Shown here: positions 15,539-59,065 of the stretch, in pieces
Layout of the letters: every line of letters starts with the position of its first letter
How positions within the stretch are numbered: the first letter of the stretch is position 1
NCBI GenBank assembly: GCA_030765065.1
Contig: CM060990.1
Location: 663,598,618 to 663,662,617 of the forward strand
Reading direction: 5' to 3'
DNA from: Deroplatys truncata
Taxonomy: Eukaryota; Arthropoda; Insecta; Mantodea; Mantidae
Length of the DNA stretch: 64,000 bases
Made by a program: the position numbers and the translations under genes
The notes under the pieces: model-generated
What the model was told of the DNA's origin: nothing
The model's database searches: none
What the model saw: only the letters and a program-made list of their open reading frames with translations

Positions 15539-15619
15539 GTCCTTGAGTTATCCATATCTTTGACTGAAAGTTGTTATCAGAGCACGGAAATGGGTCTGGG
15601 TATGTGCTGGAGCATAGAC
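15539..15619 (-). CDS. Host exon, cysteine-rich extracellular protein (DUF704x-like)
   Basis: An 81-nt exon with acceptor ctgctttacag and donor GAC/GTAAGT. In the phase left by the 58998-59065 exon it reads LCSSTYPDPFPCSDNNF then QSKIWITQG. Its exit phase joins the 214-412 exon to give ITQG-Q-RKYRCLGQW, which continues the family module. Cysteine spacing fits an extracellular domain. It sits in the minus-strand gene with introns of about 15 kb on each side. Confidence 0.6.
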
Positions 15620-15758
15620 CTGTAAAGCAGAACATAAAAGATGTATACTATAAAAACACTATACAAAATATTAATAATAAAATTCCAATCGATAAACAAA
15701 ACAGCTAAAATTAAGATTTTATTTATAATAAAATTAATATATACTCTTGATTCTTGTA

Positions 15759-17012
15759 CCAAACTGGATCAAATATAAACCAACATTCATTTTAAAATAT
15801 TTATTACACCATTATTTTGCAACATAATACATCTCTCATTTTTCTATATAATTTCCAGCTTTGTCTATGCACTTCTGTCAGCAATTGGAAGTTTCTTAAT
15901 TCAAGTCTTGAAGAAAGAATGAGGACATGTCCATAGCCAGTTATGCACAAACTACTCCACCTGCTGTTCACTGTGGAAATGCTCCACTCCAAGCATCTCG
16001 AGTGACCCAAAGTGCAAGTCACATGGTGACAGATCTGGGGTATAGGGAGTGTTGGAGGGAAGTCCAGTGCATTTCCACCACTTTTTGTTGTGTCTGAGCC
16101 ATGGTGTGAGACTGAACATTTTCATATAACACCACCATGTTTTGGAAGGGGCAATCTAGTCTTTTGAATTGACAGGCCACTCACAAATTCCACATAACCT
16201 CATGGTAATAAGCTGTATTGACAGTTCCGCACTCATGTAAGAAATCAATAAGTAAGACACCTTTGTAGTCCCAAAAGACTGTTGTCAGGAGTTTGCCAGC
16301 TGAGAAAACAGTTTTTGGCATTACCAAACACCCCTCGCCTTTTCATCACCACTCTTTGATTTAGGGGTGTATTGGTGCATAGGCACAGAAATGCCTCTCC
16401 TGCTTCATAGCGTGCCAACAACTGTTGAGAAATTTCCAACTGCGCAGTCTTTTATTGTTCACTCAACAGCCTTAGGAACCACTGAGCAGCAGCAGTGTTG
16501 GGGTGCTGAAGCTCACGTTTGATAATGGATAGAACATTCCTGTAACTAATCCCTGCTCATGATGAATTTGCAACACTACTTGCTAATGATCACCTTCAAC
16601 ACAGGTCCACTAGGTCTAATCTTATCTGGAGTGTTACTGGTCCTGGGCCAGCATTCATGGCTTCTATTTTGCACAGGATCTTGTGCTTTGCAAAACTGTT
16701 TGCTGCACCAAAATTTACTTGTTTTTTTGACAACACTGATTCCACATATTGTCTACATAGTCTGAACCAAATTTCATTAAGCCAAACATCTTCCTTTGTG
16801 AGAAAACAAATGACAATACCTTGTGTAGCAGAACAATGAACAGCCTTTTTTCTCATCTTAAAGGCAATTATATAAGTAGCCTTGGCCTTGAAGCAGCTTA
16901 ATGGTGGGGGGGGGCCCTACTTCCCAATCTATCACTAGGAAAATCCCACCTCCCTCCTAGATGTTCAGTGGTCACCAAGAGGACAGGTTGGTTTATATTA
17001 TATCCACCCTCA
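15759..17012 (-). mobile_element. mariner transposon, minus strand, decayed
   Basis: Terminal inverted repeats include AATATAAACCAAC (right end, reversed) and AAATATAAACCAAC (left end), within about 28 bp of related sequence. TA flanks both ends (15757-15758 and 17013-17014). Length is 1254 bp. The interior reads as a mariner transposase on the minus strand. Confidence 0.8.
15800..16860 (-). pseudogene. mariner transposase, broken
   Basis: Reading on the minus strand gives the helix-turn-helix start FLTKEDVWLNEIW with VESVLSKKQVNFW, the HTH/linker remnant SNTPDKIR, then KTVFSAGKLLTTVFWDYKG, LLIDFLHECGTVNTAYYHE and the third catalytic motif YTPDLSPCDLHF. Several frame changes and stops interrupt it. 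The first catalytic D region is badly eroded. It belongs to the D34D group by motif, though more diverged than the 8662-9956 copy. Confidence 0.75.
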
Positions 17013-17199
17013 TATTAAAAGAAGTGCTTTACAGAAGCCTTATAATGGATTATACAAATGAAAGTATTACTTTAAGGCTGTCCCTTTTGTCTTATCTGTG
17101 ATCAAATTTAGTTCTGAATACAGGGTAGTCACATTTATCTTAGCTAATTGGGACTGCTGTGGCTTTTGGCTAAAAATTTTTGGGATTTGACAACTAAAA

Positions 17200-17345
17200 A
17201 TTACACAAAACATATAAAATCAAAAAACCCAACTCATACTAGTATATCAAAATATTTTCTTGCTTGAAAAAATATGTGATATCCTACTGTTTTTGTGAAT
17301 GGCTTAGGTTTTTTACTAACTGCTACAGGAATTACAGGTGTAGAG
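17200..17345 (+). repeat. Direct repeat, copy 1
   Basis: About 150 bp sharing blocks such as GATATCCTACTGTTTTTGTG and AATTACAGGTGTA with 18110-18260 in the same orientation, at roughly 85% identity by eye. Confidence 0.75.
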
Positions 17346-17351
17346 CTTCTG

Positions 17352-17352
<1 letters not shown>

Positions 17353-17444
<92 letters not shown>
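17353..17444 (+). repeat. Compound microsatellite (AAC)n(AAT)n
   Basis: About 12 AAC units followed by about 17 AAT units. Polyasparagine or polyisoleucine open frames across it are artefacts. Confidence 0.98.
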
Positions 17445-17445
<1 letters not shown>

Positions 17446-18105
17446 TGAGACAAATGGAAGCTGGAAAAAAGGAATGAAAGTAATGTAGATAAACTGGTAA
17501 AAAGTTGAAAAGAAGACATATAAAGGCAGGAGATATGGGGAAATTTAAAAAAACAAGAAATCATTACAATTTTATAACCAAATAAAAAGAAACTGGGAAC
17601 AAGAACCATATAAAGATTACTGTAACACATAAGAAAGAGAAGGAAAGCTTGGATGAGAAGAGGAACAATATTTCTAAGAGGGATAAGAGGTAGTGACAAA
17701 GGAATATGTGAAATGTGCATGAGAAATAAAGTATAGCACATTACATGACAGAATCCAAGGAGTTTTCCTTGTGGAGAAAAAATGGGAAAAAGTAGAGGAG
17801 AAAATTGTAGCTATAAAAATGTTAACAGGGAAAGAAGAAAGGAAGATTAAAGTATAGGCGAGTTTTTACAGAAGGCAAAAGAAAAATTGGCAAGGAAAGT
17901 AAAGAATACAACAGAAGATGACAGAGGGAAGGAGAGGGATAATTAAGATAAAGGGGAAGGAACAACAAGAGTTACGAGCTGAGGTGAACAGCCTGGGTGC
18001 CATGTAAGCCGAGGCAGCAACAAGGTCAATCAATAATTTGTACATAGTTTAGGTAAGATAAATGAAAAATTCTAAAGGATGTAAAGTAAGTTGTGCAAAT
18101 AAATT
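17445..18105 (+). pseudogene. LINE 3'-end fossil
   Basis: A-rich plus-strand coding residue with a CxxC patch (GICEMCMRNK) after an arginine-rich helix (RRGTIFLRGIRGSDK), like the C-terminal zinc motif of non-LTR retrotransposons. It ends in a 3' tail like that of the 59645-60494 LINE (GTGCAAATAAATTC). Frame breaks are frequent. It lies between the two 150-bp direct repeats. Confidence 0.4.
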
Positions 18106-18109
18106 CATT

Positions 18110-18260
18110 CATTCACAAAACATATAAAAACACAAAACTCAATTCGCACTATATCAAAACATTTTCTCGCTTGAAAAACTCTGAGATATCCTACTGTTTT
18201 TGTGAATGGCTACGGTTGTTTTGTAACTCCTACAGAAATTACAGGTGTAAAGTTTTCGAT
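18110..18260 (+). repeat. Direct repeat, copy 2
   Basis: Partner of the 17200-17345 repeat, about 0.9 kb downstream. The two flank the microsatellite and LINE fossil. Confidence 0.75.
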
Positions 18261-18639
18261 CTACTCCTCTTCATGCCAATACTAATAATACTACCAATAC
18301 CAACAACAACCACCACCACAAGTACTTAAACAATAAACATGACTAGCAAAATTGAAATGTTTGCAAATATCTCACACTATTTTATAAATGTTGTTCAACA
18401 TAATGCTGAAGTATTCCCAATGAAAACTTTCCGAATATTTCCAAAGTGGTAATGCTTTAATAATGCATTACAACTTTGGAGCATACAATTACGGAAAACA
18501 ACTTAAATTGAACAGTATTAAGCATTACGATGTATTGTAAGGCCATGCACAAATAACGCTTAGCCTGTTTGCCACAGCAAGACTCAAGGATACAAGAGAA
18601 AGGTTTCCCAATTTCGTCTCTTGAACTTCGTTTCTGCCA

Positions 18640-20177
18640 TCAGGTTGCATAAAGGTGAGTTCACACTCTCATGATGGGAGGCGTGCAAAGAGGTACTCCA
18701 CATGATATGAAAATTTCAACATCCTGAAGCTTGTTCCCTTGAATACCAGCCCATTCATCAAGCCAGTGCAACAGAACAGAATCACACAACACAACGCTAA
18801 AATCATCACAAAGAACACAAGAACTAAAACATTTGGGGGTGCAATTGCAGGTTAGAAAGCTGTAACAGCAGCCTAAATCCCTGGCAGGCCGATATGTCCA
18901 AAAACACACACAAAGGACATATTGATGCTAGCATCAGCAAGTGAGTGAGGGCAATCCTGGATGAGGTGTACATAGCGACTGAATGCTGTGGAGTACACTC
19001 AAGCAATCAGTACAAATTACACATTGCTCAAGGTCTTGCAACTGGGTATATAAAAGAGCTTGGAGAATATTAAGCAGCTCAGCTGCAAAAATTAAACACT
19101 GCTGTAAAAGGTGAAATCTAAAAATATGTCACAGAGTAAGAGCACAACCTACTCCCCTTCGCTTTTTGAGCCTCAGTGAAAACAAATTGGCAGTTGCCAA
19201 ACTGCTCTTTAAATGCTATAAATGCTGAATGAATAACTGAACAGGGGGTTGTAGACTCCAGAGCAAATGTCAATTCCAGATGGAAGTGGGTCTCAATGAG
19301 GAGTCATGCTGGAAAATGTGTTTCCCCTCTGGTAAAGTGATGGAGAACAGCAGAAAGAGCAAACAAAAATGACCTCCAGGGTAAGTAAAGTCAGGGAGCT
19401 TGCTATCTACTTACGGTCCAATGAATAATTAAAATCATAAATTTTAAGACAGATGTCCAGGCAGGCTAGAGAGACTGCATGCGTAGCTACACAGAAGAAC
19501 ATTGTGTCAAAAAGGTAACAGAGGTGTAGCAGCTTCTGCAAATAGAAAGATAACTGGACTTGTGGGAAAGGCCAATATTCAGCCTGATACCATGATGATG
19601 AAGTGAATTTATACAACTTAAAATGGAAGGTGGCGCCAAAGAATACACAATGCACCTGTAATCAAGTTTCAGTCGGACCAGTGAGCAATACAGTCTTAAA
19701 ACAAAATTCCAGTCATGAAAGATTAAGATACTGCTCACTCCTTGATTTTAAGTAAAATATATGAGACCAGCTGAACTTCCTGTCAAAAATCAATTTTAAA
19801 AGTTTTGTCTTATATGCAAAAGGAACATGATCTAGCCCAAGATGTACAGAAGGCTTACAGAATGTGTTCCGTCAACAGAAGTTCACGCAGATGGTTTCTC
19901 GGCAAAGTTAAAGATATTTTTTATACTCCAAGTAAAGAGGCAGTATCAAGACATCATTGGAGTTGGTGTTACAGGAGATAAGCCCAGTGGGAAGTACATT
20001 AAATTACAAAATCATCCACAAACAATGAAGATGAAACATCAGGTGGAATGCATTCCACAGAAGGGTTGCTGACAACACCAAAATATGTGACACGAGCCCT
20101 GTGGTACTCTGTTAATAAAACAGAGCCCAATGATATCCCAAACTCCGTAGCCCTCATGAACACTTGAAAAAGAGGGG
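18640..20177 (-). mobile_element. Old I-type LINE, left part (split by younger LINE)
   Basis: Decayed minus-strand LINE related to the 20178-26269 element. LLHWLDEWAGIQGNKLQ (about 18720-18780) matches SRWRDEWTALRGNKLRE in the younger copy. VRLKLDYRCIVYSLAPP (about 19640-19690) matches VRSKLDYGCIVYSSARP. PPDVSSSLFVDDFVI (about 20000-20045) is the RT active-site block. Sequence resumes at 26270 after the younger insertion. From 19215 onward it is near-identical to 60488 and following. Confidence 0.8.
20169..20177. repeat. Target-site duplication of the young LINE, left copy
   Basis: AAAGAGGGG here matches 26270-26278 exactly. The uninterrupted paralogue at 61420 has one copy. Confidence 0.8.
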
Positions 20178-20553
20178 GTGATGATGATGATGATGATATG
20201 CGGTTTAAGGGCGCTAAACTGCAAAGGTCATCAGCACCCTTACAATGTATAAAATATAAAGTCAAAATATAAAAGACAGGTAAAAGAACCGCATAATTAA
20301 AAAACGGGACACAAACCCGCGATGTTCAGCAAGCTAAAAATAACAATAATAGAACAATAACAACAGTAACAATAACAGTAATAACAATAAAAATATCCAA
20401 AAAACCAACACACTAAAAGCATAGGCAATAAAAGATTAAAACGTGTCAAGAACTGTAGAATGCGAGGGACATGAGCGCCATATATCCACTGGGGAGTAAG
20501 TCCCTATTAAAACATACAGAAGAAAATAACAAAGCTAAAAGACGCTCAGCGCA

Positions 20554-23500
20554 TCAAATGCGACGATTAAAACCAATGTCACCTATAAAACGTAAAAGAC
20601 ATTCTACAGCATGCGCATCGTCTGCCAAAACGTTGGCTATGCCAACAGGCAGACCCACGCGAACGTGCAGTGGAGCTAAAACTTGACACTCAGATAAAAT
20701 GTGACGCACCGTTAAGGGCACGTCACACTGCTGACACAGGGGAGCGGGATCACCACTGAGCAGGTAACTATGACTAAAACGGCAATGTCCAATTCGTAAA
20801 CGGGCTAAAAGTACCTCTTCCCGACGTGAAGAACGAGAAGAGGTACCCCAGATTAACGGGAGAGGTTTAACCTCCCGCAACTTGTTCCCCCGGAGAGCTG
20901 TCCACTCATCGCGCCAGCGCGAGAGGATGCGGCGACGTAAAATAACACACGAATCTGACGAGGGAACAACAGAGGTAAAAAATCTGGGTAATAAAATCGC
21001 CGATTTTGCAGCGGCGTCGGCAGACTCATTACCTGAGATGCCCACATGACCTGGAATCCACATGAAGGAGACGCTGATGCCAGAGACACCAAGCGAGTGG
21101 AGCAGGTCATGTATGCGCTGTACAAGTGGGTGGTAATGGTACAGCGCATGAATAGTCTGAAGGGCACTCAGAGAGTCCGTACAAATAAAACAGTGCTGTA
21201 AGGCGAGGCGCTGAATGTATAAAACAGATTGATAAATGCTAAAAAGTTCGGCGGTAAAAATTGAACATTGTCCAGGTAAACGAAGCTTAAAACTACAGTG
21301 ACCAGAAACAAAGGCACATCCAACTCCAGCTTCAGTCTTAGATCCATCGGTAAAGATAAAATGGAAGTCCCCGAATTGAGCCCGTACTTCTAAAAAAGCC
21401 AATCTAAAGACTGAAGCAGGGGTCTCAGTCTTCGGCATCGACGTTAGCCCAAGGTGACAGTGGGCCTCAGCGCGGGACCACGGAGGAAAACGCGTTTCCC
21501 CCCGTGGAAGGGCCGGCACTGGCGGAACGTCTAAATGCCGAAGGAGCTGTCGAAAGCGAACCCCTGGTGGGAGCAAAGCAGAGGAGCTAATAAAATAGTG
21601 ACGATCAAGTGACTCCTCGAAAAATAACTCGAAGGACGGGTGGTCAGGCAAGCTTGAGAGTCGACAGGCATAGCTGCACAAGAGCATCTCACGCCTGAAG
21701 GACAGCGGAGGCTCTGCAGCTTCAGCATACAGGCTAAAAACAGGGCTGGTTGGAAAGGCCCCTGTAGCGACTCTTATACCACGATGGTGAATGGCATTCA
21801 ATCGACGTAACACACATGGACGTGCCGACGAATAAACAATACACCCGTAATCAAGCTTGGATCGGACCAAAGAGCGATAAAGGCGAAGAAGGACGGTCCG
21901 ATCAGCTCCCCAGGATGTGCCACTTAAAACACGTAAAATATTAAGAGAACGGTCACACTTTGCTTTTAAAAAGGAAACGTGCGAGGTCCAACACAACTTC
22001 CTATCAAAAATCACCCCAAAAATTTCGCCTCGTCTGGAAATGGAAGTATCCCTGGCCAAAGATGGAGAGAGGGCGGAGGGAAATACTTCCGGCGCCAGAA
22101 GTTGATGCAGGCGGATTTCTCGGCGGAGAAATTAAAGCCGTTGGCATTACTCCAGGCGTAGAGATGGTCGATACAGCTCTGGAGACGGCGTTCAAGTAGA
22201 CAGGTCCGCCGTGAACTACAATAAATGGCAAAATCATCAACAAAAAGGGACGATGAAATGCCAGGTGGAATACAATGAACAATGGGGTTGATAGCAATCG
22301 CAAAAAGTGTGACACTGAGTACAGAGCCCTGCGGTACTCCGTTCTCTTGAATAAAACGACTAGATAAAACCGAGCCCACACGTACACGAAAGACGCGGTC
22401 CCTCATGAACTCCCAAAGAAATATGGGAAGACGACCGCGGATATTCCATGCGTGAAGTGTATGTAAAATGCCGCCCCTCCAACAAGTGTCATAAGCTTTC
22501 TCCAGGTCAAAAAACACAGCCACGGTTTGACACTTTCTCAGAAATCCATTCACAACATGCGTCGACAGGGACACCAGATGGTCGACGGTAGAGCGATAGC
22601 GACGAAATCCGCACTGAGCGTTCGCTAGAAGTTTCTGAGACTCAAGCCACCATGTCAACCGCCCATTGATCATGCGCTCCATCACCTTGCAAATGCAACT
22701 GGTGAGGGAGATAGGGTGGTAGCTGGAAGGTAGTTGGCGATCCTTCCCAGGCTTAAGAATAGGGACAATGGTAGCTTCACGCCAAACGGAAGGAAAAATG
22801 CCGTCTTGCCAAATACGGTTATAGACCTGTAAGAGAAAGAGTTTACTGTCGGCTGAAAGGTTCTTTAACATCAGGACATAAATGCCGTCCGGCCCAGGAG
22901 CGGATTGCCGAGAGCAATGAAGAGCGTGCTCCAGCTCCCTCATTGTGAATAGTTCGTTATAACATTCATTATTAGCAGACCGAAAAGTATATGATGCAGA
23001 ATCCAGCCGGTCTTTAAAAGAGCGAAAGCCGGCGGAATAATGGTCTGAACTGGAAACCGCCTCAAAGGCAGAACCTAGGGTGTTAGCAATGGCAGCCGGA
23101 TCTACTATGATGGCATTGGGAACCTGAAGGCCAGAAACAGTACAATGCGACACTTTACCTGAGAAGCAACGAAGTTTATCCCAAACTACAGATGAAGGCG
23201 TAAAGCGATTAAAAGACTCGACAAAACGAGTCCACGATGCCTTCTTGCTATCCTGAATAATGCGACGAGCCCTGGCGCGCGATTGTTTAAAAGTCACCAA
23301 ATTATCAAGTGTAGGGTGTTGCCAAAACACCCTAAGTGCAGTCCTACGGGCACGAACGGCGTCCCGACAATCCTCGTTCCACCACGGAACAGGTGGCCGC
23401 CGAGGTTGAGAGGATGAACGGGGAATTGCACGTTCGGCGGCAGAGAAAATCGTAGACGTAAGGTGCTGCACTAGTTGGTTAATGTCAGCGAAGGGCTGAT

Positions 23501-24242
23501 CGTAAAAATGCACGAGGCTGGAATACAAGTTCCAGTCGGCTTTTGGGAATATCCAGGTAGGTACTCTGGAATGCTGTATGTGGTGCGACAGAAGAGAGAC
23601 GATGCAGGGGTAATGGTCGCTGGAGTAGGTGTCAGCGACGATGTTCCACTGAAGACGACTAGCAAGCTGGAGGGAGCAAATGGCAAGGTCCAGGTGTGAG
23701 AATGTACCAGAAGAATCAGAAATAAAAGTAGGCTCACCTGTATTGAGGATTGAAAGATTGAACTGGTAAAAAATGTCGGAAAGAAGAGTTCCCCTTGCAC
23801 AAGCCCTTGGCGAACCCCATAGTGGGTGATGGGCATTAAAATCTCCCAACAGAAGAAATGGTGTTGGGAGAGCGGACAGGAGAGATCGAATGTCCGCGGG
23901 AGCGAGGGGAGACGATGGAGGTCTATACACAGAACAAACAGAAAAGAAAAAACAGGGTAACTGCAGTCTAATGGCAACAGCTTGCAAGTCGGACGTAAGT
24001 GTGATAGTTTGAAAATGAACGTCATTACGCACCAAAATCATGACACCACCATGAGCAGGAGTACCCTCCTCCGGTTCAAGGTCGTAGCGAACCGGAGTAT
24101 ATCCTCGGAGATCAAAAGGATCGTGAGGGCGAAGCTTAGTCTCCTGCAAACATACGACCATAGGCGAATGGGAACGCAATAAAAGTTGCAGTTCCGCCCT
24201 ATGCGATCGTACACCACGTACATTCCAGGTCAGGATAGCCAT
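20554..24242 (-). pseudogene. LINE ORF2: AP endonuclease, reverse transcriptase, RNase H (one frameshift)
   Basis: The first part (24242-22011, 743 codons) opens with TWNVRG and LQETKL, then LLGDFNAHHPLWG (about 132-144) and SSDHYPC (about 207-213), the endonuclease signature. RT motifs follow: APGPDGI, FFDLEKAYD, GVPQGSV and FVDDF (about 667-671). The second part (to 20554) carries RNase H: IFTDGSK (D238 of its frame), E271, TDS (295) and GNESADAAAK (near 343-352), then CQQC...H...C. The two parts are out of frame by one base at a G-run near 22020 (KFLG/VIFDRKL), which looks like a single-base loss or an assembly error. No other break was seen. Confidence 0.88.
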
Positions 24243-24263
24243 TAAGAAAAAGGGATAAACTGC

Positions 24264-25571
24264 CTATTTAGAAGGGCGGCTTAAAATTACCTTTTGTTTA
24301 ACCTTTGGGCTCGGGCTTTTTGTATGGAGTTGGTCAGACTCCATAGCTCCCTCGGAGGGAGGGCCCACGCGCTCAGTGCCAGAAACCGATTCAAGCGCCG
24401 TGAATCGGTTCTGGGTGGTGATGGGTGAGGGGTGCCGCTGAGCGCGGCTTGTCCCAGGAGCTTCCTGGGACAGCGACCTCCGAGGAGAAGGTGAACTTTT
24501 GTTACCGCGCGCACGCGGAGGGTCTTTCAAAAAATCTTCCCTACGAAGTTTCTGCTTGGGTTTCTTTTCAGCGGCTTGCGACTTCATTGACTTCGGACCA
24601 GGTATATACGGCTTGGTAACTGTAGCTTTAATGGACGGCCGGATGGTAGTGGCCAATCCAGTCATGCTCCAGGTCTGAGTTTCGGCATCTACTCGTGGTA
24701 CTGGCGAGGCAACAACAGAACTAAATGTGCCAGATCGCAGGAGTGAAGGTTGGCGCGCATGGTAACGCCTCCGGGCTTCAGCGAAGGAGAGTTTTTCCTT
24801 TACCCGGATCTCCTGGATCGCCTTCTCGTCCAAGTACCGCGGACAGTCGGCAAACGAAGCAGAATGAGACCCTTTACAATTAATGCAGACGGGGGCTGTT
24901 GAACAGGTACCTTCGTGTGAGGACTGGCTACATGTTGCACAGATGTTAACGGCACTCTTACATGAGACTTGCGTATGCCCAAAACGTTGGCATTTAAAAC
25001 AATGCAGAGGTCTAGGAATATAAGGCCTCACAGAAATCCGTTCGTACCCTGCGGAAATGCTTGTGGGCAGATCGACGCCATCAAATGTTAGAAACAGGGT
25101 ACGAGTGGGTACCAATACGCCGTCGCGTTTGGCCTGCACTCGATGGACCGCTGTCACCTTCTGGTCTGCAAGATATTCCACCAGGACCTCGTCCGATATT
25201 CCATCGAGGCTATGCGTGGTGACAACGCCTCGGCAAGAATTCAAGGTGCGGTGCTTCTCAACATGGATAGGATAACCGTGGAGAAGCGTAGTGCGCAACA
25301 AGGTCTTACTCTGCTGTTCGGATTTGGTTTGAACCAACAAGGAACCAATCCGTAGACGAGTGCAGGACTGAACCGCACCTGAAATAGCGTCAATGCCCTT
25401 CTGGATAATGAAAGGGTTCACCTCAAACGTTTGACCTTCCTCAGTTCGTGAAACCACTAAGTAACTACCAGTTGTCGGCGGTGCTACTTCTGTTGCAAGT
25501 ACTTTACGGCGCTTATTATTAATAATGGAGAAAGGGTGCTCCATAGCGAAAGAAATCCTCCACCATTGCAA
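24264..25571 (-). CDS. LINE ORF1: nucleic-acid-binding protein with zinc knuckles
   Basis: An open frame of 435 codons ending 21 bases before ORF2. Three CCHC-type knuckles lie at about residues 191-245: CFKCQRFGHTQVSC, CATCSQSSHEGTC and CINCKGSHSASFADC. The N-terminal part resembles the RNA-binding fold of I and jockey ORF1 proteins; the C-terminal part is basic and proline/serine-rich. In these elements ORF1 coats the RNA and aids target-primed integration. An alternative start (MEHPFSIINNK) lies ten codons in. The frame is intact. Confidence 0.88.
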   Translation of the reverse strand: MQWWRISFAMEHPFSIINNKRRKVLATEVAPPTTGSYLVVSRTEEGQTFEVNPFIIQKGIDAISGAVQSCTRLRIGSLLVQTKSEQQSKTLLRTTLLHGYPIHVEKHRTLNSCRGVVTTHSLDGISDEVLVEYLADQKVTAVHRVQAKRDGVLVPTRTLFLTFDGVDLPTSISAGYERISVRPYIPRPLHCFKCQRFGHTQVSCKSAVNICATCSQSSHEGTCSTAPVCINCKGSHSASFADCPRYLDEKAIQEIRVKEKLSFAEARRRYHARQPSLLRSGTFSSVVASPVPRVDAETQTWSMTGLATTIRPSIKATVTKPYIPGPKSMKSQAAEKKPKQKLRREDFLKDPPRARGNKSSPSPRRSLSQEAPGTSRAQRHPSPITTQNRFTALESVSGTERVGPPSEGAMESDQLHTKSPSPKVKQKVILSRPSK

Positions 25572-26107
25572 CCGTCTCCGACCTCGGGCTCTGACTTCCC
25601 GGGCATTACCCCGGCTTGGGTGAGTGGCCTATCTATACCAGACTCACCCCAGGGTCACACCTCCCAGAACATAGACAGAGGGACCCAATCGCCGTCGGAA
25701 GCCAGCAGCTCATGCAATGGCCCCCCCCGCGGGACTGCAGTTGAACAGCGGATACGAACACATACGCTACATGACGACCCCGGGTGGTGGGGATGACGCC
25801 ATTACCCACTCACCCAGCTGCGCACCCAGTGCGCGGGTATCCGTCAGGCTGTGTCCACGGAGGATTAAAAGAAAGATAAAAGAAACTAAAACTGTGTGGG
25901 CGTTTCGCACGCAAGGTAGGCCGGCGAGGAAGTGAAATAGAGGCGTAAATGAATGAACGTGGGGCGAAATGCGCAGAAATATAGAAGAAAGAAACGATAT
26001 TGAGGTGCGGTATGAATGTGATGCAAAGCACGCACGAGAGCCTACCTTGGGTCCACCGGTCACAAGAAGAACCCACCTCGACCGGATGGGGGTGAGGGGT
26101 TGAATGT

Positions 26108-26269
26108 GGCGATGATTGGCTCGGGTATTCCGGGTGCGCCTAACCCGTACTCACAAAAGGTGAGCCCCTGGGGGGGGGGGGGTGGAAGGATGATGATGGC
26201 GATGATTGGCTCGGTTATCCCGGGTGCGCCTAACCCGTACTCACAAAAGGTGAGCCCCTGGGGGGGGGG
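26108..26269 (-). promoter_or_regulatory. LINE 5' UTR tandem monomers with G-runs
   Basis: Two copies of a roughly 90-bp unit (GATGATTGGCTCGG at 26111 and 26201; GTGCGCCTAACCCGTACTC in both). Each ends on the plus strand in CCCCTG plus a run of 10-14 G. Multi-monomer 5' UTRs act as internal promoters in some LINEs; that role here is inference. The element's 5' boundary coincides with the second G-run. Confidence 0.6.
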
Positions 26270-27116
26270 AAAGAGGGGAAGATGGTCACGAATGCTCCAC
26301 TTATGGAGAGTACAAAGAATACCTGAACTCCAGGAACTGTCACACTTTGAGGTCAGGTAAGACTGCAAACATCTGCATCCATGATTTGTGTGGATTGTGA
26401 AGCTAAGTAATTAATTGTAAAACTGTAGTAACGAAAACCACACTTAACATTCCGACAGCAGTTTTTGAGTCTCCAGGCCACCATGTCAACTGCATGTTAA
26501 CCATATGCTCCATCACCTTGAAAATGCAACTGATGATGGCGATTGGGGGGTAACTGGATGGTAGATGACAACTGTTATCAGGTTTCAGTAATGGGATGAT
26601 GGTAGTATAAAGCCAAGTGTAGGAAACTTAGCAGTTCACCATACAGTTGAAGACCTGCAACAGAAAGAGTTTGCCTGTGGAAGAGAGCTGCTGCAGCATT
26701 AGCATCATCTAGACCAGAAGCTGAGTGCCTAGGATGAGGATAGGATCTGCTCCAGCTCCTGCATGGTGAAAAATGCATTCTAACACTTTCCATTAAAAGA
26801 TGGTTCATGTGATTCATCTCATCTCAACAAGAAGAACATTCCTTTGATGCATGCAGGACCAGCTATGTTATCCAGACCAGATTGAATGGCGAATGGGTTG
26901 ACCTTCTGAAAATCCTGAACCATTTCCATTATGTTAATCACAAGGTAATGAGTGGACAACATTACATTTCATAATGCACCTAGCCATAAAAGATAGGCTA
27001 ATAATTTTATACACAAGTGCTCCCCACCAATCACAAAGTCTAACAAGTGGTTATCCCATAAGGATGACAGAGCTACCTCCCACTGACCCTAGAGTTCAGT
27101 TGAAGACATCCCGTCC
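26270..27116 (-). mobile_element. Old I-type LINE, right part
   Basis: Continuation of the 18640-20177 copy after the younger LINE. It is near-identical to 61425-62275, including long non-coding decayed stretches (for example the block around AGACCTGCAACAGAAAGAG). Weak coding traces on the minus strand (a PISLTSC-like region in the partner copy) mark the RT N-terminal part. The first nine bases are the right target duplication. Confidence 0.75.
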
Positions 27117-27158
27117 TGCCCCGTCTCATTTTAAAGCTTAATGAATGTAGCTAATTAA

Positions 27159-28241
27159 CCAATTGCATATATTTAAATGCCCACTCAGCTAACCAGGAAA
27201 TCAGATTTACATCCCCTACCTGTGAGGGTGGTAACAGCTTAATGCTTAAAATATCATTTAAAATCAACCAATAACAGTTTTTGTTGAAAATTTGTGTGCA
27301 CAATATTAAAAGCATAAACTCTCCTAGTACTGTTGTTGTGTGTGATAGAACTCAAAACAATCTTTCTAAAAGAAAAGCAACATCATATTTTTTACTTACA
27401 ATTGGGGTTTCAAGGCATCGGCCTTTGCTCCAGTACAATTAGATATGCGATTTTCGCACTTGAGACATCAAACTAACAATACAGCCCTAATTTCATCTGC
27501 CGTAGCTTTAGACCATTTTTCATTGTCTTTCAAAATTTTTCTGTTGGATTGTTCAACTTCCTTGTTGCATAAGCATTAGCTTCGCAACACATTTTGTCAA
27601 ACAACGGTATCATGTATTCCGAAAAAAAACTGAAAGTGCAATAGCATGTGTGATGCATGCTTGATCAGTATGTCTTTATCAAAACCACTATTTGCAGTAG
27701 AAGGGTAGAGAACAGGGTTATTGTCAGTTTTAGTCCAATTTCAATCACACTGTTTTTTCCGTGTCATAATATGGACATGTTTCAAAGGGCCTGGCGTGTC
27801 ATCACTGGTTTCATAATTATTTTCCTTGCTGCTTTCTGCACTAGATTCATTATCAATGTCAATAGAACTTTCTTAAGTCTGTGTTTCATATTCAGAAAAC
27901 TCACCATTTTAACTATCACTCTCTAATACACTTTGTATCAGTTTCCTCAAACCCTCCTTGTTATCCAAACAGATTCTTTCTGCAGCCATGATGGCTACTA
28001 CTGACGCTAGTGAAGGAAGAATAAAATTATTTTGAAACACAGTTGGTGAGGTCATACTGTGAGAATTACAACCACCACATGTCAGCACTTCATTTGAAAC
28101 GTATACAAATGAAGCTGTGAAAAGGAACCTAAACTACATGTAGTTATGTAGAGTAATGTAGCATTGTGAGCTGAGTTTGCCATATAATTTATATGCAAAA
28201 AAAGTGTGTGCGAACCCTGATCATCAAGTGATGCAAATGGG
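27159..28241 (-). mobile_element. piggyBac-like deletion derivative
   Basis: TTAA lies at both ends (27155-27158 and 28242-28245), as required for piggyBac. Ends read CCAATTGCAT (left) and, reversed, CCCATTTGCATC (right), the usual piggyBac CCC...TTTGCAT terminus. At 1083 bp it is far shorter than a complete element. It contains only the N-terminal part of the transposase on the minus strand. Confidence 0.75.
27430..27990 (-). pseudogene. piggyBac transposase N-terminal fragment
   Basis: Minus-strand reading starts MAAERICLDNKEGLRKLIQS, then an acidic region with IDNESSAESSKENNYETSDD, then NSGFDKDI, a HFQFFFG patch, ADEI and LYWSKGRCLETPIVS. That order matches piggyBac proteins (acidic N-terminus, F-D-F-F block, Y-W-S-x-D-x-x-L-E-T-P-I). 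Several stops and frame changes occur, and the DDD catalytic core is missing. Confidence 0.65.
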
Positions 28242-28320
28242 TTAATGAAGGCTCTATCATGATCTTAGAGATTGTACACGTGTTTAACATGTGCTGAAGT
28301 TCATTTTAAGAATTTAAGTA

Positions 28321-30090
28321 CAGTAAAACCTTGTTAATCCGGATCCCTTTAAACTGGATTTCCCTTAATCCGAAAAAGCATCCTTAAAAAGAAAAACTCT
28401 GCGAACTGCTAACTTAAATTACAGTACTGCACTATGACAAACTTAAGGAAATTGTCCATTTTATTTTTGCACAGACTGTACAATAGGCATTTCTTGGGAA
28501 TACCAGGAATACAGTAGTGACAATGGTACATTAGGCTGCCCTCCTTACCACACCCTTGCTGTACCTGCGATAGGGCTTGCAACTCTTGTCAGAAGGGTTA
28601 GTTTAACACTTGCCTTTCTCAGTGATTAAGCTAAAAAAACAAATCGAGTGAATGTCGTTTAGTAAATCTACAATGTCATCGTGGAAACGTAAACATAAAT
28701 CGCTTACAATACACGAGAAACTGAAAATTATCGAAAGGCTTGAAAATGGTGACACTGTTGCATGTGTATGTGCAGAATATGGAATTGCAAAACAAACAGT
28801 TTTGGACATAAAAAAGAAAAGGGTGAACTTTTATCATTTTTTATTAAATGTGATGTAAATGAGGAAAATTGTCAGGTCAAATGAATGCAGCAGCTGGCTG
28901 AACAAAAGTTAGAAGTCGTGACATACAAGTGGTACGAACAATTTCGTACAAGCAGAATTGCAGTGAGAGGTGTTGAAATTCAAGCTGCTGCTGCTGAACA
29001 TCTTGCGAATCAACTTGGTATCAATGGATTTTTGGCTAGTTTAGTCTGCTTATACAGATTCCACAAGTGTCGTAACATAGTGAACAAAATAATGTATGGA
29101 GAGAAGTTAAGTGCCGATACATCAGCTGTTGACCCATTTACATAAAAACTATAATCTATCATTCAAGAAGAAAAATTACATTTGCCTCAAGTGTATAATG
29201 CCGACGAGACAGGTCTATTTTGGCGCACCTCGCCCGAGAACACGCAAGCCTCCAAATCCTTAAAAAATACGCCTGGACAAAAAATTTGCAAAGAGCGTGT
29301 TTCTGCGTTATTGTGTGCTAATGCAGATAAAAGCTATATTTTAAAGCTAGTTGTCATAGGTAAAAGCAAACAACCAAGGGCTATTAGGAAAGTAATGTCC
29401 ACATTGCCTGTTCATTACTACAATTCAAAAAATGCGTGCTTTACGGCAGGCATCAACCATGATTAGTTTCACAACCATAAAGCCATAATCCTATTAGATA
29501 ATGCACCTGCACATCTAGATGCAAAGAAACTGTGTAGTGCCAATGTGTTCTTGCTACCTAACACAACTTCCCTGATACCCCCAATGGACCGAGGCATTAT
29601 CTACACTGCAAAGCGGTTGTACAGAAAGAAATTCCTGTCTGAAGTTTTTGAAGTTGAGGAGCCTCTGGACGGTAAAGATAAACGGGTGGAATAAACACTC
29701 CAGAATATAAAATCATATGATTTCAGATCCATGATTTTAATTTTGCTAGTGCAGTAAACAGCATTTCAAACATCACATTGACTAATGCGTGGAAGAAACT
29801 TGTGTATGATGACAGTGTTGAATAAAACGCCAATGCAATTGAATTAAATGGCTTTCACCTAACACTGGTTGTGGGTGGCGAGAAAGCTGTCACAGTAGAC
29901 AAGATTGAAGACTGGCTTGACAGAGATGAAGATGATCCAGGCTATCACAACATGACTGACGAAGAAGTTGTGGAAAGTGTAAGCAATGCGAGGGACACTA
30001 GTAGCTAATCTGAGGCTGAGGATGTGGATTTTGGAAAGTCGAAAGTGAAATTAAGTAAGGTTAAACAGCATCTGAATCATATAATATTAT
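28321..30090 (+). mobile_element. Tigger/pogo transposon, 3' end lost
   Basis: The left end CAGTAAAACCTTGTTAATCC is the characteristic pogo/Tigger terminus, preceded by TA (28319-28320). A second inverted-type copy of the motif (CCCTTAATCCGAA) follows within 50 bp. No right-end partner is found; coding traces stop near 30005 and a 140-bp tandem repeat begins at about 30110. The 3' end has been deleted or replaced. Confidence 0.75.
28673..30005 (+). pseudogene. Tigger/pogo transposase, broken
   Basis: Psq-type helix-turn-helix: KRKHKSLTIHEKLKIIERLE with GIAKQTVLDIKK (28673-28830). CENP-B-like helix-turn-helix: LEVVTYKWYEQFRTSRIAVR (28910-28970). The DDE core shows YNADETGLFW (29197-29226), ILLDNAPAH (29488-29516) and PPMDRGII (29578-29602). 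Frame changes separate the first and second blocks; stops follow DPFT (29143) and at 29464, and decay increases after 29690. In this family the protein cuts and pastes the element at TA sites. Confidence 0.85.
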
Positions 30091-30109
30091 GTAATAATCA
30101 TGCATCTGA

Positions 30110-30362
30110 AATATGGAGAAGACGTGTAAATTAGGTGAAATAGAAGCATACGTTATTACACTGAGGCAGTTGCAGCATTGTTGTCATTGTCCTTGAGCTA
30201 CAAAATACACATTGTTGTATTAATGCACTGCAATGAGGTGACAATAGGATATCTGGAGGAGACGTGTAAATTAGGTGAAATATCAGGAGCATACATTATT
30301 ACACAGAAACAGTGACAGCATTGTTGTTATTGTCCTTGAGCCACAAAACATAAATTGTTAAG
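30110..30362 (+). repeat. 140-bp tandem repeat, about 1.8 units
   Basis: Unit marked by GACGTGTAAATTAGGTGAAA (30121 and 30261, period 140). The same unit recurs at 55806-56200. It follows directly after the Tigger remnant. Confidence 0.85.
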
Positions 30363-30573
30363 AATTTAATAGAAATTGCAATTGTTAGCATGAATAGCTT
30401 TGGGAATACATAAGTTTACACTTAGGCCAGTATGCAGTTTTTAGATAGATTTGCAGCTGGTAATACTACCACAAAAACATTTACCATTTACAGGAAACTC
30501 CATTATGATAAGCAAGTACCTTCAGCAAGGTTTAATTATTCTTGTAACAAAATAAGTTATAAATTCTGCTTAC

Positions 30574-30732
30574 CACTGAGTGCATGCAAATACTGGAATC
30601 CTTTCATTAGGACCACGGTCTGAATCAAGACAGCAAACTTTGTATATATTGAAGAAAGAATGGTCCATGTAGGTGAGCGTGTTTCCATCAACAAAAATGT
30701 GCTGCCAATAGCCATGTGCCCAGGATGGAAAC
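30574..30732 (-). CDS. Host exon, cysteine-rich extracellular protein (DUF704x-like)
   Basis: A 159-nt exon with acceptor tttcttag and donor CAGTG/GTAAGC. It reads FPSWAHGYWQHIFVDGNTL, then MDHSFFNIYKVCCLDSD and RIPVFACTQ, followed by TG to be completed by the next exon. The FPSWAHG...W..H and C-T-Q-C pattern recalls the first half of an arthropod extracellular module. The natural continuation (TG/T = Cys, then GEEMYTC) is the 58998-59065 exon, which lies upstream in the genome rather than downstream. The frame is fully open. Confidence 0.6.
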
Positions 30733-31095: not shown

Positions 31096-31388
31096 TGTTA
31101 TGACAACAATCACAGATTAACACGAAAAGAACAAGATTACAGTGAAACCCCTATTTTACACTTCCATGGGGGCACTTAAAAACCGTGTAAATTCAAGGAA
31201 AAATAATGTGATTGCATACAGAAAATTCTGAGGTGAATGCAACAACAAAACTGATGAAGACCACTTTTAATAACCAGTTCTTTCCAATCATGAACTGACA
31301 CATGTATTACTGTCCTGAAATTTCAATTAATGTATTTATGAACAAACCCTCTTACACAGACTGATTTTCAGTAGATTTTATAAAATAT

Positions 31389-31411
31389 AAATATATATAT
31401 ATATATATTTT
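31389..31411. repeat. AT dinucleotide repeat
   Basis: About ten AT units within the Tigger remnant. Confidence 0.9.
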
Positions 31412-32055
31412 AAAAAAAACACTGAATTTCTATATGCTAAAAACTAAGTTTTATGAATATATGTACTTTTATGTACAACATACATTCCTAGTACATACAG
31501 AGGGGGGGGACTGAAAAGAATGCAGCAATAATGCAATAACTAGAGACCCGTACATTTTGCAATTCACAAAAAGCTAAAAACGTATGACTTTATACATAAA
31601 ATGTATCGTCATTACGGTAAAAGTTGGTTTTCAGGTGTCTCAAACCGCGAACTACTCGCGAATTTCTTAAAATATTCAACTATATACAAATTTTGATGTT
31701 TACCCACGAATTTTAACAAAATGCATGTTCATTACACTTTGGACAACGCAAGCATAAATTCTGCTTTTTTTAAGGTAAAAGAAGGAAAAAATGCAGATGA
31801 TTGGCTAAAACTCGTCAGGTAAATCTTTATTCAACAGCGCTTGGGGCGCTAGGTCGGAAAATGCGAAAAGCCGGTTGGCTGCGCGATGGATCCTGTAACT
31901 AAGTTCAAGATACAGTGTGGGGCCGGGTGGAAGGCAGCTTACACATAATTCCAGCTATCGGCCTAGGCATAGTTGACCACAGAACAGGAATCAGTCCGTA
32001 TATCACAGGTGTTACGTGATTATTCTGTGCAGTGTCCTATTTTCTTAAAGTTAAC

Positions 32056-32266: not shown

Positions 32267-32329
32267 TTTGTTCTTCAATTTGCAGTTTGTATATTAAGCC
32301 TCACGCTTTGGAGACCAATTTGAAGTAGA

Positions 32330-33285: not shown

Positions 33286-33339
33286 TAAAAACTGCCTCAT
33301 TATATATGAAGCTGTTGATGGGGCTAAAAAAGCAAAGGT

Positions 33340-36213: not shown

Positions 36214-36291
36214 GATCGACAAATGGACTTGAGCATGACAAATCTGGAAATACTCTCCTCCTATACTTATGAAAGTAGCATTCAGAAGTGA

Positions 36292-51509: not shown

Positions 51510-51575
51510 CGCACATCTGTAGTGTGGTCGATGTTCTGCACCATGGAGTGCCAGATATCTTTCATCTTGAGACCC
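51510..51575 (-). CDS. Possible small host exon, unassigned
   Basis: A GC-richer minus-strand stretch reads GLKMKDIWHSMVQNIDHTTD then VR, ending at a good donor (GTGCG/GTGAGT) in the phase needed by the 30574-30732 exon. The obvious acceptor (gatacag at 51608) would introduce an in-frame TGA, so the start is unsure. No family recognised. Confidence 0.25.
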
Positions 51576-51792
51576 CTGCCGGTCTCCCAAACATTGTCAT
51601 GTCACATCTGTATCACAAAAGTGCAGAACTTGCTGTATTTCAATTTAAAATAAATATTAGGTACTGTAAAACACTTTGCTTAAAAGCTAGTGTCTTATTT
51701 TCCAGAAAAGCATTACTTCATAGGCACCAGCTTGCATAAGGAAGTACTGTGTGAGGTTGGCAGTGTACTGTATGAAAATTTGGATGATAGAC

Positions 51793-52179: not shown

Positions 52180-52253
<74 letters not shown>

Positions 52254-53532: not shown

Positions 53533-53544
53533 AAGTAGTTGTTT

Positions 53545-55545: not shown

Positions 55546-55555
55546 TTGAATGTTT

Positions 55556-55725
55556 GCATGGATATCTTGCCACTCGAGCAGCAAGAGTGAAAGATCCATG
55601 TTTCAAGACTTGGCCATGGCATTTAATTTTTTAAATGATTCAACTTTCCATCTTAGTACCTACACACACACACACGCATGGCTATTGTGAATAAACCATG
55701 AAAAAAAGCACAATTTAACATGTTT
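55556..55725 (+). repeat. tRNA-derived SINE, family 1, second copy
   Basis: ATCTTGCCACTCGAGCAGCA, then CATGTTTCAAGACTTGGCC (B box) and body GATTCAACTTTCCATC with an internal (AC)n (55664-55677). Adjacent to the previous copy in the same orientation. Confidence 0.65.
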
Positions 55726-55805
55726 GTGTGGCCACTTATTGTACAAAGTTAACCAAACCTGCATGTTGATTCATACCCAGTGAAAATGCTTTTCTTTCAG
55801 GGCAA

Positions 55806-56200
55806 ACACATTATCGCACATATACGTTATTACACAGTAGTAGTGGCAGCATTTTTGTCATTATCCTTGAACCACAAAATACACATTGTTGTATTAATGT
55901 ACTGCAATGAGGTGACAATCGGAAATCAGGAGAAGACGTGTAAATTAGGTGAAATATCAGGAGCATACGTTATTACACAGAAGCAGTGGCAGCATCGTTG
56001 TTTTTGTCCTTGAGCCACAAAACGCACATTGTTGCATTAACGTACTGCAATGAGGTGGAAATGGAAAATCTGGAGAAGACGTGTAAATTAGGTGAAAAAT
56101 CAGCAGCCTACGTCATTACACAGAAGCAGTGGCACATTGTTGTCATTGTCGTTGAGCCACAAAACACACATTGCTGTATTAATGTACTGCAATGAACATC
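55806..56200 (+). repeat. 140-bp tandem repeat, about 2.8 units
   Basis: Same unit as 30110-30362 (GACGTGTAAATTAGGTGAAA at 55936 and 56079, period about 143). Units share TTGAGCCACAAAA and GTACTGCAATGA. Confidence 0.88.
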
Positions 56201-56299
56201 ACAATAATAAAAAACTGATGTCATTAAAAAATAGAAATTTAAGTATGCACCTTGGATTAAATTCAACATTGTTAAATTACACCGGGTAATGCTGCACTA

Positions 56300-57255
56300 T
56301 CACATGCAGTTTTACACCAAACATGTCTTGTCCCCGAAAACGATTCCGGAAGAGGAATTTGTGGAGATACGATGTGAAGAGGGCGTCACTGGTACCAACG
56401 GCGCCGAATTTTCCTCTTCATCCACATCCACATGTTTTCCACATTCTGCGTGTAGATGTAGTCGTCCTTGGGGTCAAAAAGTTCTACTCATGGACAATAA
56501 CATCGTGAATGTATATGCCGTCAAGTAGATTTACAATGTTGGCGTAAGAAGCCCATCCATCTGAGATGATGTGGCTTCCAGGAAAAATATGCTGTATGAT
56601 CAGGTCTTCCAGGGTTTGTGCCGTCCTGTCGGGCACTTCCACCAGGAAGCATTTCCCAAAGCCCCTCCTAATACCACCGAACATCCACTGGTCCTCACGC
56701 CACATCCCTCGATGGCATTTATGGTGAAAGAATTTAGACTTATCAATCTCCACGGTGATGGGCTCATTATTTTCATCGAGGCCGCCAATGAAATCTGGGT
56801 TTTCCTCCAACCACCGCTTGGTTTCTTCTCTGACGAAGTTGCACCAGTCCACAGAGGTATGGCAAGTAACCGCCGAGGCTTCCTGTCTCATAAGTATTAT
56901 GGCAGCTCGAAAGCCCAGGTGTACACCAGGAATATCACCTGCTCCAAGTGTAGCTTACTCATGGACAAGAACGATCCATCCTGATGGACTTCCTCCTTCC
57001 GCAAGATCCACAGGACCCCGCTTACCATCGACGCTGTCATTGTAGTTTTGCAGCACACATGGCTGCTGGCAGTCATTGCAGATCTTGCTATTCGAAATCA
57101 GTCTTCTGTGGGCTATCCACTGCAGAACTGCTAGTATCCTGTCTATCCTGCAGAACAGAATTGGCAACAACCAAACTTTGCCAATCACTGCTGGCTGGTT
57201 AAAAATTTCCTCTTCAGGCACAATTGCAAACACATTTGAGAGAGCAGCCAATCCA
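56300..57255 (-). pseudogene. Merlin-type transposase (IS1016/ISXO2-like), broken
   Basis: N-terminal part: HRRLISNSKICNDCQQPCVL (zinc-ribbon-like CxxC) and DGKRGPVDL; GSFLSMSKLHLEQVIFLVY follows in another frame. The longest open stretch (56891-56484) has DWCNFVREETKRWLEENP, TVEIDKSKFF (first D), WMFGGIRRGFGKCFLVEVP, DRTAQTLEDLI and IISDGWASYANI (second D). The end reads NFLTP, then TQNVENMW-like traces toward 56400. These are the DDE_Tnp_IS1595 motifs. Two or more frame breaks. Terminal inverted repeats were not located. Confidence 0.85.
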
Positions 57256-57549
57256 GCTGCCAGACAACGCTTTTTTGAGTTCCCTACTCTATTGTAAGCA
57301 GAGTGAGGCTACCTTCTTTTCGATGCTGCTTCTGGAACAACAATAAATTGCACATAGTTTGGCATAATTGTCCACCTCTTTTACCTTGTGCCTATACTCT
57401 TTGCATGAAATGTCCCACAATGACAGCCTCAACATAATATCATTGATTAATGAAAATGTCTTTCTTCTGTCCATTCCATAACTTCATGTGGAGCAAATCA
57501 AATCAAGGATACAAGCACAGAACAATACAAGTGAACAAGAGAAATAATA

Positions 57550-57852
57550 AGCAATGACTTGTGATGAATAGTGTGCAGGAATTGGAATGCACCATTGCAT
57601 GGTCACACTCTGGAAACTTCCTAATCTTGCCCGATAATGTATGAAGAGCAAGCAATGACATGTGATGAATAGTGCGCAGGAATTGGAATGCACCATTGCA
57701 TGGTCACACTCTGGAAACTTCCTAAGCTTGCCCGATAATGTATGAAGAGCAAGCAATGACATGTGATGAATAGTGTGCAGGAATTGGAATGCACCATTGC
57801 ATGGTCACACTCTGGAAACTTCCAAAGCTTGCCCGATCATGTATGAAGAGCA
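57550..57852 (+). repeat. Three tandem 101-bp repeats
   Basis: Units begin AGCAATGAC at 57550, 57651 and 57752, and each contains GCAGGAATTGGAATGCACC and CCATTGCATGGTCACACTC. Near-identical copies suggest recent expansion. Located between the Merlin fossil and an inverted repeat. Confidence 0.95.
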
Positions 57853-57904
57853 AATTGACTTAATTTTTCCACCAAAAGCGAAAAAAACACCCAAAACGTT
57901 AAAG

Positions 57905-57998
57905 GTGTCAAGTGCAACACCCTCAGTTAACATGTTAAGTCAATCCTGATACCAAAATTTGGCTAACATGCAAAATGTTAACATGTTGCACTCGACAA
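57905..57998. repeat. Imperfect inverted repeat (hairpin)
   Basis: GTGTCAAGTGCAACA (57906-57920) faces TGTTGCACTCGACA (57982-57995), with TTAACATGTTAA-type sequence inside each arm. It could be a small MITE or an end of the Merlin element. Confidence 0.6.
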
Positions 57999-58012
57999 CT
58001 TTTGTTAAATGT

Positions 58013-58997
58013 TAGTCAGTGTGGACATGGCTTAAGACAGGTTTTTCTTGATCTGCCCAGCATTAAGGAAAACTGCCTGCTATGCATAGGTTGGCCCACT
58101 GAAAACCTACCTGATGCGGAAAGCATGTGCAGGCAGTAGAAATCACAAAAATGTATACTTCTAGCAGAAATTTTTCTTATGCCTATACAATAGCCATTAG
58201 ATTCACATCCCATTTGACCTATGAATCTCCATTTTTTCAAATTTATCAAATTGCTTTAGTTTGCTTTGTTGATAAACAACTTACTCCCACCTGTGTGTCA
58301 TACTGAAATTGTACCACATGGTTCTATTCAAACTTAATCATTTGCTCTAGCTCATATTAAGAAAGTAAAAAGCTCAGAATATCAAAAGTAAACCACATAT
58401 TAAGGTTGGTTCACAATAAACAAGGAACAGGAACCAGAATAAGACCAACAATGTAAAGCAAAAATATGTACATTTGGTTCATAAATGCAATCAGAGAGAG
58501 GGGGTTGTGTGTGCGTGGGTGGGTGCATGCGTGTGTGTGTTAAACACCTTATTTTGTAAGTAAAGGCTATATATGCTTAATATAGTCATGTATATTGCAT
58601 TTCATGTTCCTTAATTTCGTTTTTCTTTCCTTAAAATATGTCTACAAAGCCCAATTTAAATGCTCAGTTCTATTATTGGGTAACTGGGGAGAGCCAATGC
58701 AGGGTTTAAATGGACGGCAGGACGTTTACAAGATTTTTATTAATTTTTTAAGCAGGATACTCCAGAAGGCCAAAAAGTATTTTATTTTTATTATTATCTC
58801 AAATTTTTGGTCCATTATTGCAATGGATAAACAAGATTTAAACAGAAAACTAAGAGGTAGTTGTCACATTTCTCAACATGCAAGCCTGCAATATATAAGG
58901 ATACTGTATGCATGGTATAATTCTATTGGGCTGGTTGTGTTATTCCAATTGAAGGTCTACAGGAAGGCACATATCTGCAGAAATAAGGGTCACTCAC
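58013..58997. other. Intronic sequence with MITE-end fragment
   Basis: GGTTGGTTCACAATAAAC at 58405 resembles 39323. A GT/GC-rich simple stretch lies at 58500-58545. No gene seen. Confidence 0.3.
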
Positions 58998-59065
58998 CTA
59001 TCTGAAATTCCAAGACATTTACACCACGTTGTTTCGGCTATGCACACGTGTACATTTCCTCACCA
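58998..59065 (-). CDS. Host exon, DUF704x-like, with in-frame TAG
   Basis: A 68-nt exon with acceptor tttgttgcag and donor GATAG/GTGAGT. After completing a Cys codon it reads GEEMYTCA, TAG, PKQRGVNVLEFQI. This matches the family pattern in which C-G-E-E-x-Y-x-C is followed by a Trp and ends NVLEFQ. The TAG at 59038-59040 replaces the expected TGG. Entry phase fits the 30574-30732 exon and exit phase fits 15539-15619, yet it lies upstream of both in the gene direction. Confidence 0.55.

Follow-up and report, generated by a model that had tools for sequence, protein, structure and literature searches.

Tandem duplication with random loss is a model proposed for mitochondrial gene order. Durkin et al., in 2012, reportedly attributed colour sidedness at cattle KIT to translocation by circular intermediates. 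Segments rotated via circular intermediates are described for cattle KIT, and such a rotation is discussed for the spiny rat (PMC3927395, PMC12104558); exon scrambling in RNA has been traced to circular RNAs (PMC3270023). Here we describe scrambling at the level of DNA, in a 64,000-nucleotide stretch of the Deroplatys truncata genome (C16:663598618-663662617), called the window below. The exons of one gene, all on the minus strand, stand there in an order that contradicts the protein they would encode. The gene carries the Pfam domains DUF7044, DUF7042, DUF7043 and DUF7045 (PF23071, PF23069, PF23070 and PF23073, respectively), for which no naming paper (DUF7042-7045) was found in the literature searched. 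Four of its exons carry the observation:

Exon A, 30574-30732, minus strand: DUF7043 positions 7-58; open frame; 30 bits in Pfam (E-value 7.1e-7).
Exon B, 58998-59065, minus strand: DUF7043 positions 60-80 of 104, interrupted by an in-frame TAG; entered in phase 2 and left in phase 1; misplaced in the gene order.
Exon C, 15539-15619, minus strand: DUF7043 positions 81-104; open frame; no Pfam match alone.
Exon D, 214-412, minus strand: DUF7045 positions 47-99 of 100; split over two frames by a frameshift (35.6 and 20.4 bits).

Checked on the letters, the coordinates, splice sites and phases of these exons are those of the initial annotation of the window. Exon A ends in ACT-CAG-TG/gtaagc, with two codon bases left over. 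Exon B, of 68 bp (cag/T-GGT-GAG...CAG-ATA-G/gtgagt), supplies the missing base and leaves one base, and exon C (cag/GT-CTA-TGC...GGA-C/gtaagt) opens with two. Joined, A+B+C form a single frame interrupted solely by one in-frame TAG within B, and A joined to C without B is out of frame. With X for the stop, the joined exons match DUF7043 over positions 7-104 with 71.1 bits; this value and the 30 bits of A alone both exceed the curated Pfam cut-off of 27 bits, which places the exons in the DUF7043 family. In control runs the score fell to 33.1 and 32.7 bits when B was shuffled by hand in two ways, to 31.5 with B written as X and to 33.3 with B omitted; shuffling the residues of B costs about 38 bits. 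The partial joins reach 58.7 bits (A+B) and 33.1 bits over 58-104 (B+C). The order by Pfam profile positions puts B between A and C, independent of any paralog. The in-frame A-B-C join that had been proposed is borne out by the splice sites and by the 71.1 bits, and the claim that B lies upstream of A and C though belonging between them is upheld by the Pfam positions and by the exon order of the sister copy P2, described below. The proposed fit of C to D stands as far as phase goes; D, however, is frameshifted and covers only DUF7045 47-99, so that half a domain is missing between the two. The conflict in exon order is confirmed as real and exceeds chance.

Another B could have been present between A and C. 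On the minus strand this is rejected, since tblastn, motif, Pfam, candidate-exon and genome searches all came back without one. There was no B-like exon between A and C by tblastn and no B motif in a weighted motif scan of both strands, and Pfam found no other B on the minus strand in 15601-19802 and 26401-30587 (18 translated stretches of about 1,500 bases each). Stop-free candidate exons of 50-95 bases and fitting phase between A and C numbered 148; their top score was 13, against 126 for B, and the best candidate anywhere in the window reached 18. Queried with B plus 40 flanking bases at either end, the genome gave 22 DNA matches, the sole one within the window being B itself. An inverted B between A and C is likewise rejected by tblastn, the motif scan, the genome search and a plus-strand Pfam search of 15601-19302 and 26901-30602 (six stretches of 3,700 bases each) that found no B. 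As these searches found no intact equivalent of B between 15.6 and 30.5 kb, the out-of-order reading stands, and the suggested genome search for second copies has yielded the 22 matches of B.

Exons A-D do exist; the initial annotation had missed two further exons, the second of them weaker:

Exon E, 62762-62925, minus strand: DUF7044 positions 46-93 of 94; open frame; first detected exon in gene direction.
Exon F, approximately 51510-51614, minus strand: DUF7042 positions 54-88 of 123; in-frame TGA; a gap of 12 bp, in frame, when set against both sister copies.

Exon E scores 37.8 bits (E-value 2.3e-9) in the scan with stops read as X and 42.1 bits alone; exon F scores 16.3 bits (E-value 0.0094) in a long stretch and 22.7 bits alone. 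Exon E also matches DUF7043 weakly (16.7 bits), so that DUF7044 and DUF7043 are related; B has no match to DUF7044. The usual domain order, which we take to be DUF7044-7042-7043-7045, is shown by P2 for the first three domains. Minus-strand Pfam scans of the window outside 19.8-26.4, 40.1-42.8 and 44.4-47.9 kb (mobile-element sequence) found no match to DUF7042 1-53 and 89-123 or DUF7045 1-46; short exons for these stretches may lie below detection. Exons A-E all have splice sites that appear usable. A sequence search of exon A against the PDB gave a single match that is not meaningful (E-value 0.68). The window has no Rfam family at gathering scores and no tRNAs, and among viral contigs eight pattern matches included no relative.

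The copy in the window is broken. B carries a TAG, F a TGA and the 12-bp in-frame gap, and D a frameshift, whereas E, A and C are open. The initial annotation overlooked both the TAG in B and the splitting of D. The TAG of B is common to the sister copy P6, where P2 reads TGG, and the TGA of F occurs in the window only, among the window, P2 and P6. Given the TAG and the frame lost when A and C are joined without B, no intact frame spans DUF7043 at this locus. Introns are kept, sister copies have homologous introns and disabling mutations are present, as in unprocessed pseudogenes. Given the stops and the frameshift, nothing requires this exon order to yield a protein. A copy that no longer codes for an intact protein would not have its exon order kept by selection.

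Sister copies were sought in the 4.29-Gb assembly of 818 contigs. The DUF7043 profile gave six matches, all above the cut-off, four on C16 and two on C13; the list is incomplete, as the window's own exon A is not in it at an E-value of 0.001. The four matches on C16 are copies with introns homologous to those of the window. Of the 22 matches of B, 17 lie on C16 at 639-664 Mb (the window's own included, and others at 663.447, 663.928 and 664.003 Mb), and the remaining five belong to contigs C755 and C758. A pair of B matches spaced by about 1.5 kb occurs in C755:42168-43819 and again in C16:654197925-654199582, which suggests that C755 is an alternative version of the C16 654.1-654.2 Mb region. 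The DUF7043 matches on C13 (L001 and L003, at about 98.65 Mb) have neither a tblastn match to exon A at an E-value of 0.001 nor DNA homology to the window exons, and are possibly distant relatives of the gene. Two copies were read over 100 kb each, and others were compared over loci of about 3 kb (L002-L006):

P2, C16:654910001-655010000, minus strand: about 8.7 Mb from the window; order E-F-A-B-C on one strand.
P6, C16:663220001-663320000, plus strand (opposite to the window): about 0.35 Mb from the window, inverted; order F-A-B-E.

In P2 the exons lie at 65880 (E), 55062 (F), 48376 (A), 43297 (B) and 38025 (C), with no stop in their aligned parts; exon D of this copy falls just beyond the 100 kb covered. 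In P6 they lie at 36544 (F), 49997 (A), 57033 (B) and 62001 (E), within a homologous unit at 32740-66260 whose ends correspond to P2 positions 61107 and 61483, only 376 bp apart. As F-A-B-E is a rotation of the P2 order, P6 looks like a rotated unit. Its segment after B ends in R', a 143-bp tandem array, followed by the region upstream of E, a head-to-tail B-q-R'-E join, where q is the segment downstream of B; R' is also found upstream of E in the right flank of the window. A second, inverted exon E with two in-frame stops lies 18 kb past the right end of the window (L028:8368-8535, C16 at about 663.681 Mb), and its homology to P6 extends past the exon; the cluster therefore also holds inverted pieces.

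Read against P2, the window has the order E / B / F-A / C, that is, two neighbouring blocks, F-A and B, swapped at three breakpoints. The initial annotation had offered, as one of three explanations, a local rearrangement that moved an exon, and this is supported, since P2 keeps the order E-F-A-B-C, from which three sharp junctions set the window apart. In P2 coordinates and gene direction the window consists of E (67486-65386), R1 (46687-44881), B (43886-41433), the segment from pre-F to R2 (60204-44314), and C (41067 onward). The corresponding features in the window, in gene direction, are:

Junction J3, 62269-62271: post-E intron joined to the fragment R1 of a long interspersed nuclear element (LINE), with a 3-bp microhomology (GCA) on both sides.
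R1, 60486-62271, minus strand: second copy of the LINE-like fragment whose canonical site is the A-B intron; assigned to the lineage of the window and P6.
0.84-kb segment, 59644-60485: between R1 and B; without match in P2 or P6.
q, 55732-57230, minus strand: downstream of B; a DNA-transposon remnant and R'; common to P6, without match in P2.
Junction J2, 55720-55732: end of R' joined to the pre-F segment via an 11-bp filler.
R2, 19218-27119, minus strand: LINE-like fragment at the canonical A-B intron site; split by a 6.1-kb LINE (20178-26270).
Junction J1, 18667-18668: blunt relative to P2, where P2 has its 3.2-kb B segment.

For J1, a microhomology of 2-4 bp was considered and rejected, as the letters show a blunt join. 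The outer ends of both rotated arrangements are close together in unrearranged P2: in addition to the 376 bp of P6, the paired breakpoints of the window are 428 and 366 bp apart in two pairs and 4.4 kb apart at the third. Compared with P2, the window lacks about 4.4 kb of the E-F intron as well as about 0.8 kb at the two remaining breakpoints. The 0.84-kb segment replaces an R-to-B link of about 0.9 kb in P6 (R being the LINE-like fragment); its plus-strand open reading frame (ORF) at 59648-60187 has no Pfam match at an E-value of 0.01 and, judged by eye, is a LINE end. The transposon remnant in q matches DDE_Tnp_IS1595 (ISXO2-like) below the Pfam cut-off.

Several other mobile elements were observed in the window. 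The LINE at 20178-26270, with endonuclease, reverse transcriptase and RNase H ORFs, is inserted in the older R2 and may be flanked by a target duplication, of at most about 15 bp. A Penelope-like sequence at 40513-42405 forms a palindrome with two 944-nt arms, 100% complementary and 5 nt apart, with relatives at 44.3-45.7, 46.9-47.9 and 52.7-53.5 kb; an 835-codon ORF at 44409-46916 matches RVT_1 and GIY-YIG. Just downstream of exon A, the plus strand of 26901-30600 holds a DDE_1/CENP-B-type transposase. Insertions of the window relative to P2 include 28320-30352, in this same region, and 31139-38240; copy L002 lacks the former segment. Two ORFs, at 35507-36211 (plus strand, 235 codons) and 7981-8631 (minus strand, 217 codons), have no Pfam match at an E-value of 0.01. 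The labels LINE, Penelope-like, pogo-like and ISXO2/Merlin-like derive in part from Pfam matches and are otherwise our presumption.

Taken together, the window is probably a decayed copy of a DUF7044-7042-7043-7045 gene whose family was amplified on C16. Its ancestral order was E-F-A-B-C(-D), and blocks F-A and B were swapped through three breakpoints, presumably by way of a head-to-tail intermediate. The block with B and the transposon remnant would have moved between E and F, leaving no B between A and C. Such an intermediate could have arisen when E-F-A-B was duplicated in tandem and then lost in complementary parts, or when a circle was excised and put back from a different starting point; the ends would have been sealed by end-joining. 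We infer that the window and P6 are most simply explained together by an intermediate that was either head-to-tail or circular.

The first of these routes, which we regard as quite possible though somewhat short of an even chance, would begin with an unequal exchange, perhaps of one R' array with another, that produced the series E1-F1-A1-B1-E2-F2-A2-B2-C-D; F1-A1, E2 and B2 would later have been deleted from it. It accounts for the presence of R twice, with R1 nearest to the R of P6: R1 differs from P6's R by 4.4%, from R2 by 5.3% and from P2's R by 11.7%, and 10 sites group R1 with P6 against 3 and 2 for the alternatives. R was therefore copied within this lineage, which favours a duplication step. 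The B-q-R'-E join of P6 is the head-to-tail junction that this route needs (in the window, q joins pre-F), and the R' upstream of E in the right flank fits as well. Against it, one duplication and three deletions are needed, each exon being left once, and breakpoint pairs so close on P2 would be a coincidence under independent deletions. R alone is present twice over more than 200 bp in the window. Divergence to P6, which is 5.10% (241/4722) for the B-R1 block, 5.87% (811/13826) for F-A and 6.30% (97/1540) for E, does not decide for it.

Alternatively, the segment from pre-F to q would have been excised, closed by joining q to its pre-F end (p) with filler, opened between R and B and rejoined, all in one event; we hold this circle or three-break rotation to be a tentative alternative. 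Three breakpoints with three junctions, the near-adjacent positions of the breakpoints on P2, the independently rotated appearance of P6 and the scarcity of redundant sequence outside R are all consistent with it, and circular intermediates have been reported for cattle KIT (PMC3927395, PMC12104558). The second R, however, is not explained by a circle alone, and the sequence lost from the E-F intron and at the other two breakpoints also counts against it.

Several observations weigh against the view that the window is a decayed copy rearranged through a head-to-tail intermediate. Exon B alone is weak (16.5 bits, E-value 0.011, below the cut-off of 27), and exon F is also below the Pfam cut-off of 27. 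If R is set aside, double coverage of P2 by the window amounts to just 48-194 bp per region, located at the borders of blocks or inside tandem repeats; a history of tandem duplication alone would not predict so little redundancy. B-R1 differs in divergence from F-A (z about 2.0) and from E (z about 1.8), and single segments range between 2.99% and 7.86%; this is suggestive at most and does not separate the mechanisms. The ends of R1 almost coincide with apparent LINE ends, so R1 could be a separate insertion, and only two sister copies were read through. An independent LINE insertion as the origin of R1 is made less likely by its placement in the window/P6 lineage. Copying of B together with R, by 3' transduction or ectopic copying, is rejected, as the flanks of R1 and R2 have no match beyond the fragment.

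The remaining explanations fare less well. The initial annotation had also considered two paralogous genes that each keep part of the module. Paralogous copies are indeed numerous, as the 22 matches of B show, and what is left in the window may derive from two tandem units of the same gene. A B inserted from a second, otherwise lost paralogous gene, with the window gene's own B lost separately, is nevertheless improbable: no A-, C- or other DUF7043-like exon was found near B by tblastn or Pfam scans, and on either side of B the sequence runs on into the A-B and B-C introns of this same gene, as seen in P2 and P6. An assembly error, with pieces misordered, was the third proposal, and the richness of the region in repeats and sister copies would allow for it. 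It is disfavoured, and we give it little credence: the window is without any N, substitutions relative to the window amount to about 3-8% (P6) and 10-14% (P2) in the compared segments, and instead of long repeats the junctions show filler and microhomology, albeit with a LINE-like fragment located at J3. Back-splicing or trans-splicing that rebuilds the protein from the scrambled exons is highly improbable, since, despite the usable-looking splice sites of A, B, C, D and E, the TAG in B, the frameshift in D and the TGA in F leave no intact coding product.

Scrambled genomic exons can pass for misassembly or exotic splicing. Here the sister copies give the expected order and junctions at base level, and the cause can therefore be read from the DNA. 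Two of the three arrangements read (window and P6) are rotated, and the family, with one unrearranged and two differently rotated copies seen, is a test system for how often amplification runs via tandem or circular intermediates. It is conceivable, though rather unlikely, that such intermediates were used repeatedly as the family spread over C16 (639-664 Mb), with several of the 22 B matches in differently rotated units. If so, circle-driven amplification would have left in this family a record that is nuclear and on the scale of exons.

In comparison with described systems, the window exons match the Pfam families DUF7044, DUF7042, DUF7043 and DUF7045 one by one in the domain positions given above, but the copy is disrupted, and the scans left several domain stretches unmatched. 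Like a duplicated (unprocessed) pseudogene in a segmental duplication, it keeps introns, carries stops and a frameshift and has sister copies with homologous introns; its rotated exon order is outside the usual definition. The scrambling of exons in RNA that derives from circular RNAs (PMC3270023) is a phenomenon separate from the DNA-level order seen here. With tandem duplication-random loss the locus would share an altered block order reached through duplication and complementary losses, whereas the blocks at this locus are exons from a single nuclear gene whose copy has decayed and retains hardly any redundant non-transposon sequence. The circular translocation of cattle KIT resembles it in that blocks are rotated and their ends adjoin, which holds for P6 and possibly for the window; here, in contrast, the rotation lies within one gene, over tens of kb, and the circle is a putative one.

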